DNA from: Sphingomonas rosea
Lineage (GTDB): Bacteria; Pseudomonadota; Alphaproteobacteria; Sphingomonadales; Sphingomonadaceae
Direction of reading: 5' to 3'
DNA length: 64,000 nucleotides
NCBI RefSeq assembly: GCF_039538065.1
Contig: NZ_BAABBR010000001.1
Coordinates: forward strand, 844,501 to 908,500
Both the position numbers and the translations under genes were made by a program. This document shows positions 47,178-57,940 of this stretch, one piece after another. The notes under the pieces were generated by a model. It ran no database searches, was not told the origin of the DNA, and saw only the letters and a program-made list of their open reading frames with translations. Numbering within the stretch: position 1 is the first letter of the stretch; each line of letters begins with the position of its first letter.

Positions 47178-48001
47178 GCCGTCAGCAACCCGCGCAACTC
47201 GGCGTCATGCTCGCGCGGGGCGGGCTCGCCGAAGAAGAGCTTGAAGGCTCCGCCTGCTTGTCCGACCAACATGATCAGGCCGTCGACCGCAGTAAGTCCA
47301 ATCGCTTCGGCCTTTTGGAGAAGTCCGGTCTTTAATGGTGAATAGACCATATCGAAGACGTAGGCGTCGGGAGCCACCGTCTCCAGCGCTGCCAGAATAT
47401 TGTCTGGCATGGGCCATTGTCCTGTCATGCCGAGAGGACTTGCATTGATGATGCCGTCGACATTGCGCATTGCCTCAGCAGCTTCGGCGAACGGATAAAA
47501 AGCAAGATCATAAGGTAGGGAAGATAGCGCGTGCCGGGCCTTGATCGGATCGCGAGCTACGACCCTGATGTCGAGCGCGCACATGACATCCAATGTCGGA
47601 ATGGCGGCCCTTGCAGCACCCCCAGCGCCAATGATGCAGACCGAGTTGTGAACACCGGGAATCGCTGCATCGACACCGCTGCCATCGGTGTTGAAGGCCA
47701 CCAGTTTGCCATTCTTCGGAACAATGCAGTTCGCCGCTCCAATGTCAGCGGCTGACTGGTCAATCTCATCGACGAGGGCGAGCGCTGCAATCTTGTGAGG
47801 AATAGTGAGGTTGCAACCCGTCCAGACGGGGTCCTCGCGCCGATGCTCCAGATAAGCCTGCAACTCTTCGGGAGCGACGTGACACGTCCGATAAACACCC
47901 GTGATCCCGAGCTTCGCCAGCCAGAAATTGTGGATCAGCGGCGACTTCGAATGGCCGACCGGATCGCCGATCACTTCGGCATAAGGCACGCCAGACGTCA
48001 T
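47174..48001 (-). CDS. aroE: Shikimate dehydrogenase
   Basis: 275 residues. Reduces 3-dehydroshikimate. Substrate residues SKSPLIHN, Lys in NLTIPHK, Asn/Asp in AANCI and FNTDGSG. NADP motif GAGGAARAA. The middle stretch, about 47260-47960, is visibly less GC-rich (about 53-55% in lines I counted) than its neighbours, while both ends are not. ATGA overlaps tie it to maf and coaE. Confidence 0.95.
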   Translation of the reverse strand: MTSGVPYAEVIGDPVGHSKSPLIHNFWLAKLGITGVYRTCHVAPEELQAYLEHRREDPVWTGCNLTIPHKIAALALVDEIDQSAADIGAANCIVPKNGKLVAFNTDGSGVDAAIPGVHNSVCIIGAGGAARAAIPTLDVMCALDIRVVARDPIKARHALSSLPYDLAFYPFAEAAEAMRNVDGIINASPLGMTGQWPMPDNILAALETVAPDAYVFDMVYSPLKTGLLQKAEAIGLTAVDGLIMLVGQAGGAFKLFFGEPAPREHDAELRGLLTA

Positions 48002-48582
48002 GACGGCAGCTTGCCCCGTTCCCGCAGCGCGCCCAGCAGCGGCAGCAGCGGAAGGCCGAGGATCGTGAAATGGTCGCCCTCGATCGTCTCGAACAATTGG
48101 ATGCCCGGCCCTTCGAGCCGGAACACGCCGACGCAATAGCTGACCTCGGGCCAGTCCGCCTCGAGATAGTCTTCGATGAACGCCTCGCTCAGCGGCCGGA
48201 CCTGGAGCCGCGCCTCGCTCGCATGGCGCCAGACGATCTCTCCGCCCTGCGCCAGCACCACCGCGCTGGTGAGCCGCATCGTCTTGCCCGAAAAGAAGCG
48301 CAGATGCTCGGCCGCGCTCTCGCGCCCCGCGGGCTTGTCAAAGCGGCGGCCCTCGACACTGACCAGGCTGTCGCTGCCGATCACCAGCGCGTCGCCTTGC
48401 ATGCCGCTCACCGCCAAAGCCTTGGCCTCGGCCAGCCGGGTCGCGAGCGCGGCATCGTCGCCCGCGAAGCCCGCCTTCACCGCCGCTTCGTCGACCCCGG
48501 GCGCCTGCGCCGCATAAGCGACGCCCGCATTGGCGATCAGGGTGCCCCGAATGGGCGAAGTCGAGGCCAGGATCAGGGTCAC
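47998..48582 (-). CDS. maf: Maf-family nucleotide pyrophosphatase
   Basis: 194 residues. N-terminal LASTSPIRGTLI, GSDSLVSVEG and DYLEADWPEVSYC are Maf features. It hydrolyses non-canonical nucleoside triphosphates. In Caulobacter a DUF299 gene lies between maf and the origin; here maf itself is the first gene leftwards. Starts at the edge of the proposed origin. Confidence 0.9.
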   Translation of the reverse strand: MTLILASTSPIRGTLIANAGVAYAAQAPGVDEAAVKAGFAGDDAALATRLAEAKALAVSGMQGDALVIGSDSLVSVEGRRFDKPAGRESAAEHLRFFSGKTMRLTSAVVLAQGGEIVWRHASEARLQVRPLSEAFIEDYLEADWPEVSYCVGVFRLEGPGIQLFETIEGDHFTILGLPLLPLLGALRERGKLPS

Positions 48583-48605
48583 GCCGCCAGTTCCATGTTC
48601 GTTCC

Positions 48606-48614
48606 TGTGGAGAA
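48606..48614 (-). promoter_or_regulatory. DnaA-box-like 9-mer 1
   Basis: TGTGGAGAA on the plus strand, one mismatch to the reverse complement of TTATCCACA. Confidence 0.45.
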
Positions 48615-48697
48615 ATGCCCCTCAGCCCCTAGCGCGGATCGGGGGATGGACCAATCGGAGCGCGTCCGGGCCGCTCGCCATCGATTCCCCGACTCGT

Positions 48698-48706
48698 TTA
48701 TCCACG
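48698..48706 (+). promoter_or_regulatory. DnaA-box-like 9-mer 2
   Basis: TTATCCACG, one mismatch (last base) to TTATCCACA. Confidence 0.6.
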
Positions 48707-48716
48707 GGGGACGAAG

Positions 48717-48725
48717 CCATCCACA
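48717..48725 (+). promoter_or_regulatory. DnaA-box-like 9-mer 3
   Basis: CCATCCACA, two mismatches (first two bases) to TTATCCACA, spaced 10 bp after box 2. Confidence 0.4.
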
Positions 48726-48729
48726 AGGC

Positions 48730-48738
48730 TGTGGATAT
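48730..48738 (-). promoter_or_regulatory. DnaA-box-like 9-mer 4
   Basis: TGTGGATAT, one mismatch to the reverse complement of TTATCCACA; faces boxes 2 and 3. Confidence 0.55.
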
Positions 48739-48889
48739 CGGGAGTCCCGCGCCGCGAATCGGCGGTCTTGCGAGAAGAACGGTTTCCGGCCACCTGTTGG
48801 CAACCGTGTGAGGTCCACTTAATCCCCCTCATGGGGCGACCAACAGACTCCAACTACCTTTTAAGAATCTAAGAGAGAAAGAGATAAGG

Positions 48890-49939
48890 GTGGCGGATCA
48901 GCCTTCGAGTTTGACGACCGACAAGCCCCTCCTTGCCGTCCTGCGCGGCGAGCGCCGGGATCCACCCCCGGTCTGGATGATGCGCCAGGCCGGCCGCTAT
49001 CTTCCCGAATATCGTGCGCTCCGGGCCGACAAGGGCGGCTTCCTCGACATGGTCTACGATCCGGCCGCCGCGGCCGAGATCACGCTCCAGCCGCTGCGCC
49101 GATTCCCGCTCGACGCCGCGATCCTCTTTTCCGACATCCTGATCGTGCCGCATGCGCTCGGCCAGCAGCTCAGCTTCGTCGCCGGCGAGGGGCCGCGCCT
49201 CGCACCGCCGCTGTCGGGCGCCGAGATGAGCGCCTTCGTGCCCGCGCCGGAGCGTTTCGAGGCCATCTACGAGACCGTTCGCCAGGTGAAGGCGCAGTTG
49301 TCGCCTGAAACGACTTTCCTCGGCTTTGCGGGCTCTCCCTGGACCGTGGCGACCTACATGGTCGCAGGCGAAGGCAGCCGCGAGCAGGCCGAGGCGCGCC
49401 AGCTCGCCTATCTCGACCCCGGCAAGTTCGGTGCGATCATCACCGCGATCGAGGACGCCAGCGTCGACTATCTGGTCGGCCAGGCCGATGCCGGCGTCGA
49501 TGCGGTGCAATTGTTCGACAGCTGGTCGGGCAGCCTCGCCCCGGCCGAGTTCGAGCGCTGGGTGATCGCTCCCACCGCGCGGATCGTCGATCGCCTGCGG
49601 AAAGCGCGTCCGAACCTCACCATCATCGGCTTTCCCAAGGGCGCTGGCGGCAAGCTTCCGGCTTATGCCCGCGAGACGGGAATCGACGCGGTCGGACTCG
49701 ACGAGACGGTCGATCCGGTCTGGGCGCATGCGAGCCTGCCCGACGGCATGCCGGTCCAGGGCAATCTCGATCCGCTCGCGCTGATCGCCGGCGGCGCCGC
49801 GCTGGAGAAGGCCGTGGGCAAGATCCTCGCCGCGCTCGAGGAGCGTCCGCACGTCTTCAACCTCGGCCACGGCATTCAGCAGACGACGCCGATCGCCCAC
49901 GTCGAACAATTTCTCCGCCTGCTCGGAAAGACCCTTTGA
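48890..49939 (+). CDS. hemE: Uroporphyrinogen decarboxylase
   Basis: 349 residues. Converts uroporphyrinogen III to coproporphyrinogen III. Signature PVWMMRQAGRYLPEYR near residue 24 and GFAGSPWTVATYM in the middle; the late FNLGHGIQQTTPIAHV is typical. Start GTG at 48890; the AT-rich leader is purine-rich (AGAGAGAAAGAGATAAGG). It marks the right edge of oriC, as in Caulobacter. Confidence 0.97.
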   Translation: MADQPSSLTTDKPLLAVLRGERRDPPPVWMMRQAGRYLPEYRALRADKGGFLDMVYDPAAAAEITLQPLRRFPLDAAILFSDILIVPHALGQQLSFVAGEGPRLAPPLSGAEMSAFVPAPERFEAIYETVRQVKAQLSPETTFLGFAGSPWTVATYMVAGEGSREQAEARQLAYLDPGKFGAIITAIEDASVDYLVGQADAGVDAVQLFDSWSGSLAPAEFERWVIAPTARIVDRLRKARPNLTIIGFPKGAGGKLPAYARETGIDAVGLDETVDPVWAHASLPDGMPVQGNLDPLALIAGGAALEKAVGKILAALEERPHVFNLGHGIQQTTPIAHVEQFLRLLGKTL

Positions 49940-53936: not shown

Positions 53937-53952
53937 TGTTTCACGTGGAACA
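53937..53952. promoter_or_regulatory. parS site 1
   Basis: TGTTTCACGTGGAACA: one mismatch to the near-universal parS TGTTTCACGTGAAACA. It sits in the mnmE-mnmG gap, about 5 kb from oriC and 3 kb from parB, which binds it. Confidence 0.85.
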
Positions 53953-55672: not shown

Positions 55673-56286
55673 TCGAATCGCTGGGAGAAGCATTCGGAGG
55701 GCCTGTTTCACGTGAAACGGCCGCGAAGATCGAGCGCTATGTGTCGCTTCTCCTCGACGAAAACAGCCGCCAGAATCTCATCAGCCGCGGCAGCGTCGAG
55801 GACGTTTGGCAACGGCACATCATCGACTCCGCCCAACTCCTCCGACACGCTCCCACCGACGCGTCCTGGCTCGATATCGGGAGCGGCCCGGGCCTCCCCG
55901 GCATGGTGCTCGCTATGCGCGATGTTAGAGAAGTTACGATGGTCGAACCCCGCCGCTTGCGCACTGCCTTTCTCGAGCGGTGTCGCGACGAACTCGACCT
56001 GAAGAACGTCACGATCGTCACGGGCAAGACCGACCAGCTTTCCGGCCGATATGACGTCATCACCGCCCGCGCGGTCGCCTCGATCGACAGGCTGTTCGCC
56101 ATATCCTTGCCATTGTCCCATCCCGAGAGCCGGTGGGTGCTGCCAAAAGGCCGAAGCGCGGCAAAGGAACTGGAAGAAGCCCGCCGCACGTGGCAAGGTA
56201 ACTTCCGACTGGAGCCCAGCGTAACCGATCCGGAAAGCCGGATCCTCGTGGCAGAGGCGGTCCGTCGGAAAGCGGGACGGGGATGA
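55669..56286 (+). CDS. rsmG: 16S rRNA (guanine-527-N7) methyltransferase RsmG
   Basis: 205 residues. SAM fold with LDIGSGPGLPGMVLA and the N-terminal NLISRGSVEDVWQRHIIDS typical of GidB. Methylates G527 of 16S rRNA; its loss gives low-level streptomycin resistance in other bacteria. A second parS lies inside codons 12-17. Order mnmE-mnmG-rsmG-parA-parB is the conserved one. Confidence 0.95.
   Translation: MIESLGEAFGGPVSRETAAKIERYVSLLLDENSRQNLISRGSVEDVWQRHIIDSAQLLRHAPTDASWLDIGSGPGLPGMVLAMRDVREVTMVEPRRLRTAFLERCRDELDLKNVTIVTGKTDQLSGRYDVITARAVASIDRLFAISLPLSHPESRWVLPKGRSAAKELEEARRTWQGNFRLEPSVTDPESRILVAEAVRRKAGRG
55704..55719. promoter_or_regulatory. parS site 2 (inside rsmG)
   Basis: TGTTTCACGTGAAACG, matching the parS consensus in 15 of 16 bases and with an intact GTTTCACGTGAAAC core. 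In rsmG codons reading PVSRETA, the usual place for a parS in this gene. Confidence 0.9.
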
Positions 56287-57062
56287 TCAAGGTCGCGATT
56301 GCCAATCAGAAGGGCGGGGTGGGGAAGACCACCACCGCCATCAATCTCGCCACCGGCCTCGCCGCCATGGGGTGGCGCGTGCTGCTGATCGACCTCGATC
56401 CCCAAGGCAATGCCTCGACCGGGCTCGGCATCGGCCCGTCGGCGCGTGAACGCTCCTCCTACGAAGTGCTGATCGGCACCGAAACCGTGACCGACAGCGT
56501 CCAGGCGACGCGCGTGCCGCGCCTCGACCTGCTCCCCGCGACACAGGACCTGTCGGGCGCCGAGGTGGAGATGGTCGACCTCGATCGCCGTACGCATCGC
56601 CTCGCCGACGCACTCGACGCCGCGCCGCCGCGGTGGGACATCTGCCTGATCGATTGCCCGCCCTCGCTCGGCCTGCTCACCGTCAATGCGCTTGTGGCCG
56701 CCCGTCACCTGCTCGTCCCCCTGCAGTGCGAGTTCTTCGCGCTCGAGGGCCTCAGCCAACTCCTGCAGACGGTCGAGCGCATTCGCACCCGCTTCAACCC
56801 CGAGCTGTCGATCCTTGGGGTCGCCCTGACCATGTTCGACCGCCGCAACCGCCTTTCGGCGCAGGTCGCCGAGGACGTTCGTGCCTGCCTCGGCGCCGCG
56901 GTGTTCGACACCGTCGTTCCTCGCAATGTCCGCCTGTCCGAAGCCCCGAGCCACGGACTACCGGCGCTCATCTACGATCTTCGCTGCTCGGGCTCGACCG
57001 CTTATGTCGGTCTGGCGCGCGAGCTGATGGCCCGCCTCCCGGCCCTGAAGGAAGCCGCATGA
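56283..57062 (+). CDS. parA: Chromosome-partition ATPase ParA
   Basis: 259 residues. Deviant Walker A KGGVGKTTTAINLA, DLDPQGNAS and LIDCPPSLGLLT. It forms the DNA-bound gradient that pulls ParB-parS complexes during segregation. Overlaps rsmG and parB by four bases each. Confidence 0.96.
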   Translation: MIKVAIANQKGGVGKTTTAINLATGLAAMGWRVLLIDLDPQGNASTGLGIGPSARERSSYEVLIGTETVTDSVQATRVPRLDLLPATQDLSGAEVEMVDLDRRTHRLADALDAAPPRWDICLIDCPPSLGLLTVNALVAARHLLVPLQCEFFALEGLSQLLQTVERIRTRFNPELSILGVALTMFDRRNRLSAQVAEDVRACLGAAVFDTVVPRNVRLSEAPSHGLPALIYDLRCSGSTAYVGLARELMARLPALKEAA

Positions 57063-57940
57063 ATCAGCCTGCGCGCGGCCTTGGCCGCGGCCTTTCCGCC
57101 TTGCTTGGCGATGCGCCCGTGGCCGCGCCCGGCAGCGCCGACGGCGTCCGCGAACTCGACGTCGCGGCGATCCGCCCCAATCCACGTCAGCCGCGCCGGG
57201 TCTTCAACGAGGACGCGCTGGCCGAGCTCGCGGAATCGATCGGCGCGCGCGGTGTGCTTCAGCCGATCCTCGTCCGCCCGGCGGGCGACGCGGGACAATA
57301 TGAGATCGTCGCGGGCGAGCGTCGCTGGCGCGCCGCTCAGCGCGCGCAGCTGCACAAGATTCCGGCGATCGTCCGGACCTTCGACGAAGCCGGGACCGCC
57401 GAAGTCGCGCTGATCGAGAACGTGCAGCGCGCCGACCTCGGGCCGCTCGAGGAAGCTGACGCCTATGCGGCGCTTGTCGAGCGTTTCGGCCACAAGCCTG
57501 AGGAAGTCGGCAAGCTCGTCGGCAAGAGCCGCAGCCATGTCGCTAACTTGTTGAGATTACGAGATCTTCCGGAGAGTGTGCGCGCCCATCTCGATGCGGG
57601 AACGCTGACGATGGGGCACGCCCGCGCCATTGCGTCTTCGGACGATGCGGAAGCGCTGGCGGAAGAGATTGTGAAGCGCGGCCTGTCGGTTCGGCAGACC
57701 GAAGCGCTCGCACGAAAGCGTCGGCCGGGGGCCGGAAGCGACATTGGCCGTGGCAGCGCTCGCCTCACTGCCGCGGCGCGCGATGCCGACCTGCTCGCGC
57801 TTGAGCGGCAGCTCGGCGATCTCCTCGGACTGAAGGTCTCGATCCAGCACCAGGGCGGGGCTGGTCAGGTCGCGGTGCATTTCTCGAGCCTCGACCAGCT
57901 CGACCTCATCTGCCAGCGCCTGAGCGGCGAGCCGATCTAG
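57059..57940 (+). CDS. parB: Chromosome-partition protein ParB
   Basis: 293 residues. N-terminal GLGRGLSALLGD (ParA-stimulating), the CTP-binding ParB/Srx domain with GERRWRAAQ and LIENVQRADLGPLEEA, a helix-turn-helix GKSRSHVANLLRLRDLP that reads parS, and a C-terminal dimer domain. It binds the two parS sites here. Its stop shares a CTAG with the convergent holA. Confidence 0.96.
   Translation: MNQPARGLGRGLSALLGDAPVAAPGSADGVRELDVAAIRPNPRQPRRVFNEDALAELAESIGARGVLQPILVRPAGDAGQYEIVAGERRWRAAQRAQLHKIPAIVRTFDEAGTAEVALIENVQRADLGPLEEADAYAALVERFGHKPEEVGKLVGKSRSHVANLLRLRDLPESVRAHLDAGTLTMGHARAIASSDDAEALAEEIVKRGLSVRQTEALARKRRPGAGSDIGRGSARLTAAARDADLLALERQLGDLLGLKVSIQHQGGAGQVAVHFSSLDQLDLICQRLSGEPI

Follow-up and report, generated by a model that had tools for sequence, protein, structure and literature searches.

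In Caulobacter crescentus the chromosomal origin of replication, Cori, lies between hemE and a COG1806/DUF299 gene and holds five CtrA sites and one site for integration host factor (IHF), as described in the available part of PMC1914354, which also places the origin of Wolbachia and its kin between hemE and COG1253, such that hemE is kept and COG1806 is not. For most Sphingomonadaceae in DoriC, an origin near hemE, with conserved DnaA boxes and an unwinding element, has been predicted (PMC4741004, in the part available). We investigated a 307-bp intergenic gap between maf and hemE of Sphingomonas rosea, at 893,083-893,389 of a single 2,675,604-bp contig that is 99.96% complete; the surrounding stretch of 64,000 nucleotides that was analysed (contig positions 844,501-908,500) is referred to as the window. 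Judging from the sequence, we consider it highly probable (approximately 0.93) that this gap is the chromosomal origin (oriC) of this Sphingomonadales bacterium, and that it belongs to the hemE-linked alphaproteobacterial type. On this interpretation it is a hemE-linked origin with a changed neighbour, and hemE-linked origins have already been reported for most Sphingomonadaceae; a literature search of titles and of the abstracts shown, with most subscription papers outside its coverage, identified no paper on the origin of this genus.

A preliminary description had already proposed the gap as an origin. This proposal is supported by evidence that is independent of the gap itself, comprising parS sites and parAB, switches in the orientation of the FtsK-orienting polar sequences (KOPS), a dif-like word, the lengths of the chromosome arms, matches to CcrM and GcrA, and the densities of DnaA boxes and GANTC sites in relatives.

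DnaA boxes, GANTC sites and DNA stability in the gap

We identified three DnaA boxes in the gap, each one mismatch away from the consensus TTATCCACA (Table 1). These are the 9-mers at 48606, 48698 and 48730, three of the four words that had previously been put forward as box-like; the fourth, at 48717, is degenerate, with two mismatches, and did not hold up as well. At up to one mismatch, only one further box was found in the 64-kb window (four in total), at 47929 inside aroE, and 98 were found across the whole chromosome, with 161 matches to a control word, the consensus read backwards. Nowhere else in the genome do the starts of three boxes fall within 124 bp, and the cluster in the gap is thus unmatched. 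With 98 sites placed uniformly, a triple this close arose in 0.1% of 20,000 draws, and a Markov model of the gap yielded at least three boxes at up to one mismatch in 0 of 3000 draws. No clean run of DnaA-trios was seen in the gap, as judged by eye only.

All six GANTC sites that had been reported within 187 bp were found at their positions, and no 187-bp stretch of the window holds more. The rate expected for them, about one per 300 bp, had been set a little high, the window holding 106 sites in 64 kb, or approximately 0.5 per 307 bp; a Markov model of the gap gave at least six sites in 1.4% of 3000 draws. Judged in this window alone, the excess is only suggestive; judged across relatives, as detailed below, it is strong. 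A RAMA-domain match was identified at genome position 2,232,082, in a protein that matches CcrM (PDB 6pbd, E 7.8e-164) and that we take as the CcrM orthologue, and a GcrA match (PF07750) at 272,861, in a search that also matched one archaeal control and is of imperfect specificity.

The gap additionally contains an AT-rich, easily melted stretch, which we consider a candidate unwinding element, and two short, conserved, promoter-like blocks.

Table 1. Positions of the predicted origin, its signals and associated genes, numbered from the first letter of the window
Feature	Position	Strand	Basis or remark
Predicted oriC, intergenic gap, also holding the inferred promoters of maf and hemE	48583..48889		307 bp
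maf, left neighbour of the gap	47998..48582	-	PF02545, E 1.3e-39
hemE, right neighbour of the gap	48890..49939	+	PF01208, E 4.5e-108
DnaA box 1, TTCTCCACA	48606..48614	-	one mismatch from TTATCCACA
DnaA box 2, TTATCCACG	48698..48706	+	one mismatch from TTATCCACA
Weak, doubtful DnaA-like word CCATCCACA	48717..48725	+	two mismatches from TTATCCACA
DnaA box 4, ATATCCACA	48730..48738	-	one mismatch from TTATCCACA
Six GANTC sites, candidate CcrM targets	48683, 48691, 48742, 48756, 48846, 48865 (span 48683..48869)		only 48756 conserved in position
Candidate unwinding element, AT-rich, least stable 40-mer of the window	48848..48887		nearest-neighbour energies
Conserved TAGCGCGG block, probable -10 of the leftward maf promoter	48630..48638		TAGCGC conservation
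TGTTGGCAA, probable -35 of the hemE promoter	48795..48803	+	invariant in maf-type gaps
parS-like site 1	53937..53952		0 mismatches to TGTTYCACGTGRAACA
parS-like site 2, within gidB	55704..55719		1 mismatch to TGTTYCACGTGRAACA
parA	56283..57062	+	AAA_31, E 7.2e-59
parB	57059..57940	+	ParB_N, E 1.3e-36

The gap is located directly upstream of hemE, and the coordinates given for it in the preliminary description, as a gene-free region between a leftward maf and a rightward hemE, were confirmed. The flip of gene direction noted at this point also holds for the neighbours tested, with genes for phosphotransferase system (PTS) EIIA, an S30AE-like ribosomal factor, an RNase_T exonuclease, aroE and maf running leftward, and hemE, UPF0093/hemJ, rho, terC, mnmE, gidA, gidB, parA and parB running rightward.

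Outside the window, we rejected an origin near dnaA (1,707,920), for which the nearest boxes at up to one mismatch are at 1,666,099 and 1,738,173; dnaA is approximately 815 kb from the predicted origin and has no such box within 29 kb. Two sets of boxes come next to the gap triple in closeness. One is a convergent DnaA-box-like pair 116 bp apart (1,077,791/1,077,907; genome 1,077,791-1,077,915); the genome has no further close pair, and this one may represent a regulatory site for DnaA. The other belongs to four TGATCCACA words, all on the same strand, at genome 493,438-495,442. These words, the first three of which (493,438-494,008) are spaced by 282 and 288 bp, are probably a repeated coding unit and not DnaA boxes.

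Matching gaps in relatives and the absence of DUF299

We compared the gap with its counterparts in 120 loci, taken from three sources (80, 10 and 30 loci), of which three (L012, L056 and L170) were dropped, being without hemE or a recognised upstream gene. The 117 gaps kept (116 distinct, with near-duplicates retained and some genomes possibly present in more than one source) have maf as their left gene in 27 cases (maf-type) and DUF299 (ppsR) in 90 cases (ppsR-type). Their median lengths are 294 and 295.5 bp, respectively, with gap starts taken from tblastn ends in place of annotated start codons. DnaA boxes occur at 5.88 per kb in maf-type and 7.09 per kb in ppsR-type gaps, against 0.163 and 0.112 per kb in the flanks, as measured in loci of unequal length. 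The box word has 47 matches in maf-type and 199 in ppsR-type gaps, the best of 200 shuffled words reaching 14 and 31, and at least one box is present in 25/27 and 84/90 gaps. GANTC sites are similarly enriched, 8.9-fold in maf-type gaps (16.4 versus 1.84 per kb) and 7.4-fold in ppsR-type gaps (14.3 versus 1.92 per kb). Of the seven palindromes with the same letters that served as controls, AGNCT is raised 2.3- and 3.5-fold and TGNCA 2.7-fold (maf-type only), far below GANTC. The least stable 40-mer is located within 70 bp of hemE in 26/27 maf-type and 84/90 ppsR-type gaps.

In an alignment of the maf-type gaps, TGTTGGCAA and box 1 are the best conserved segments, just 1.3% of segments scoring as high as box 1; the rank of TGTTGGCAA was computed one base off, for 48796-48804 and not 48795-48803. 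Boxes 2 and 4 rank at 12.8% and 7.7%, and the word at 48717, at 67%, is conserved no more than average. The GANTC site at 48756 falls within the top 8-13% and the other five are unremarkable, so that all six sites as positional elements were rejected; because only 48756 stands out, GANTC density is kept and the positions mostly are not. TAGCGC is found in 22/27 maf-type versus 8/90 ppsR-type gaps, and TGTTGGCAA in 27/27 and 22/90, with 11 occurrences in 1.07 Mb of loci outside gaps. Present in just 22 of the 90 ppsR-type gaps, TGTTGGCAA was rejected as an order-wide origin element. It is conceivable, although in our view unlikely, that this genus without DUF299 has a variant origin, with off-consensus boxes and no recognisable CtrA or IHF site, in which the invariant TGTTGGCAA binds a lineage-specific factor, so far unrecognised, through which hemE transcription is coupled to initiation, beyond a role as -35 element.

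Two further features were observed in these loci. In some Erythrobacter/Citromicrobium-type relatives, among them L036, L037, L052 and L084, TTATCGACA or TTGTCGACA stands at the box positions instead of TTATCCACA, and a shift of DnaA specificity in those Erythrobacter/Citromicrobium-type relatives is worth asking about. Two records, titled Microvirga sp. SRT01 (L034) and Bacillus sp. 2B10 (L042), contain Sphingomonadales-type hemE loci, with HemE 68-70% identical to that of the window and with DUF299 and maf in order, and their labels look wrong.

The preliminary description had noted that the DUF299 gene is missing between the origin and maf. We could not find DUF299 (PF03618) in the locus or anywhere in the genome, extending this absence to the whole chromosome. 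The family is present in 268 of 297 genomes of the order and in 74 of its 77 genera, indicating that two further genera are without it. Of the 29 genomes without DUF299, the 20 that are listed, including our own, all belong to this genus (9 are not listed), and it occurs in no listed genome of the genus; for L007, L008 and L025, absence was judged within the locus only. At the class level, DUF299 lies within the hemE locus in 23 of 30 loci (the best 30 of 50 matching genomes, from 57 searched).

DUF299 proteins regulate pyruvate phosphate dikinase (PPDK) or phosphoenolpyruvate (PEP) synthetase, according to the available part of PMC2817694. Full-length PPDK (TIGR01828 over cut-off) was found in 90 of 98 genomes, and the eight without it comprise all five examined from this genus plus G001, G087 and G006, in the last of which two partial matches lie side by side. 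The simplest reading is that DUF299 was lost along with its target PPDK. The link is not strict, because G001, G006 and G087 keep DUF299 without full-length PPDK; in G001 and G087, DUF299 perhaps regulates PEP synthetase, or the drafts are incomplete.

Chromosome-wide signals and alternative explanations

We searched for signals of chromosome organisation using patterns that we take to be those of parS, dif and KOPS (GGGNAGGG), with strand motifs read in stretches covering 39% of the chromosome. Only two parS-like sites were found genome-wide at up to two mismatches, 5.0 and 6.8 kb from the gap, with none for the reversed control, and parAB is also close by. Counts of forward and reverse KOPS were 29/7 in 893-1173 kb, 5/21 in 1173-1339 kb, 68/3 in 1339-2279 kb, 4/34 in 2279-2676 kb, 2/18 in 0-450 kb and 9/24 in 450-893 kb. 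The terminus switch is sharp (2,277,305-2,280,579); within the range listed, a single stray KOPS lies to either side of it. No dif site was found at up to three mismatches; in a looser scan of the same 39%, the best 28-mer, at 2,278,227, matched 19/28 letters (runner-up 17/28), and was accepted as dif solely because of its site at the KOPS switch. This places the probable terminus at 2.278 Mb, nearly opposite the gap, with arms of 51.8% and 48.2% between the midpoint of the gap and the dif-like site. We additionally noted a segment, genome 1,173,000-1,339,000, that is flanked by forward stretches but has KOPS of reversed polarity (5 forward, 21 reverse) and contains the sampled minimum of the GC skew; it probably represents an inversion in the right arm.

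Several observations weigh against the assignment of the origin to the gap. None of its three boxes is an exact TTATCCACA, the five exact boxes of the genome being located elsewhere and unclustered, and the fourth proposed word is the degenerate one at 48717. At least three boxes occur in just 7/27 maf-type and 38/90 ppsR-type gaps, and 2/27 and 6/90 have none at up to one mismatch. The least stable 40-mer overlaps the hemE leader, and hence is no proof of an unwinding element. No site within one mismatch of WATCAANNNNTTR, which we take to be the IHF consensus, was found in the gap, looser sites being possible. Likewise, the CtrA motif TTAA-N7-TTAA was found neither in this gap nor in any of the 117 gaps, an absence that says little because the exact motif is rare anyway (1/30 class loci in the 600 bp upstream of hemE). 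The available part of PMC1914354 likewise gives this CtrA pattern, together with a DnaA consensus.

The strand polarity is compatible with the gap, although near the edge. We fitted KOPS together with GGGCGGGG, a motif selected in those parts of the arms that are distant from the origin, and bootstrapped with the terminus fixed; the segment 1.173-1.339 Mb was left out, an exclusion made after its reversed polarity was seen. The fit peaks at 860-885 kb, 8-33 kb to the left of the gap, which itself scores within 4 of the maximum of 230 and lies near the upper edge of the bootstrap 95% range (750-897.5 kb). KOPS alone, with that segment included, scored best at 860 and 875 kb (134), versus 132 at 885-895 kb. 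GC skew is weak and inconsistent, with a sampled cumulative minimum near 1.27 Mb and an in-window minimum near 57-58 kb, and was rejected as support for the origin. The preliminary description had named a skew minimum elsewhere, accompanied by clustered DnaA boxes, as evidence that would speak against its proposal; the first part is found in the sampled data, but in a weak skew, and no rival box triple exists in the genome.

An origin in this region but outside the gap, for example at the polarity peak or near the parS sites and gidA/gidB, would accommodate both the best fit at 860-885 kb and the in-window skew minimum, approximately 8 kb to the right of the gap. We regard it as very improbable, since the window has no other box at up to one mismatch except that at 47929, and near the origin switch the strand motifs are few and of mixed orientation, making the fit coarse. 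Just as improbable is that the gap is merely a divergent maf/hemE promoter region under DnaA and CcrM/GcrA regulation, with replication starting elsewhere. DnaA and GANTC methylation do also regulate ordinary genes, and the promoter-like blocks (TAGCGC leftward, TGTTGGCAA plus a CTAA-like block rightward) rank with the most highly conserved parts of the gap; against this, the gap holds the only box triple of the genome, the parS, polarity and dif evidence indicates this same region, and dnaA has no box at up to one mismatch within 29 kb. Finally, another or second origin, such as the box pair at 1,077,791/1,077,907 or the segment 1.173-1.339 Mb, seems scarcely credible. The polarity on both sides of that segment is forward (29/7 and 68/3), the pattern expected of an inversion inside one arm, which offsets its reversed KOPS and sampled skew minimum, and the pair has two boxes only and no triple.

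Proposed mechanism and comparison with known origins

For the gap as origin, we propose that DnaA would bind box 1 beside maf and the middle boxes (48698, 48730 and perhaps, weakly, 48717), oligomerise toward hemE and melt the AT-rich 40 bp there, upon which helicase would load and two forks would leave. The GANTC sites would become hemimethylated upon fork passage and remain so until CcrM is made late, a state that may time re-initiation or the transcription of the flanking genes, and ParB on the two nearby parS sites would separate the new origins. The left neighbour in the ancestor, a DUF299 gene, would have been lost in this genus, as would full-length PPDK, leaving maf directly beside an origin whose length has not changed. 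We infer all binding, melting, methylation and timing steps, and the order of the losses; seen in the sequence are the boxes, their unique cluster, the enrichment in relatives, the low stability, parS, the polarity, the CcrM and GcrA matches and the absence of DUF299 and PPDK. In Caulobacter, GANTC sites are hemimethylated behind the fork and remethylated late, upon ccrM transcription (PMC4490391, in the part available). The ccrM gene identified here is approximately 46 kb from the dif-like site, and this closeness to the terminus would fit the same late-remethylation logic.

These results give replication coordinates, of the predicted origin and the probable terminus, for a genome in which the origin would be wrongly placed from the sampled GC skew alone. 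They suggest that the origin kept its length and core signals despite the loss of a gene at its border. The pairing of hemE with DUF299, by which alphaproteobacterial origins are located, does not hold in this genus; hemE by itself remains a usable landmark.

The predicted origin is in the same place, and has the same kind of signals, as those of Sphingopyxis granuli TFA and the DoriC Sphingomonadaceae, as presented in the available part of PMC4741004. It differs from the Sphingomonadaceae origins in its left neighbour, which in the order's 90 ppsR-type gaps is DUF299 and here is maf, and in having no exact TTATCCACA among its boxes. Like Cori, it lies beside hemE, with several DnaA boxes, an AT-rich stretch and CcrM in the genome; unlike Cori, it has no DUF299 gene, and the gap yielded no consensus site for CtrA or IHF, so that the strict Caulobacter-type features (a DUF299/COG1806 flank, CtrA sites and an IHF site) were not recovered here. 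In wMel, the DUF299 gene is kept more than 600 kb away, whereas here it is absent from the genome and maf, the next gene, stands in its place; the Wolbachia origin, as described in the available part of PMC1914354, nevertheless sets a precedent for an origin linked to hemE but not flanked by DUF299.
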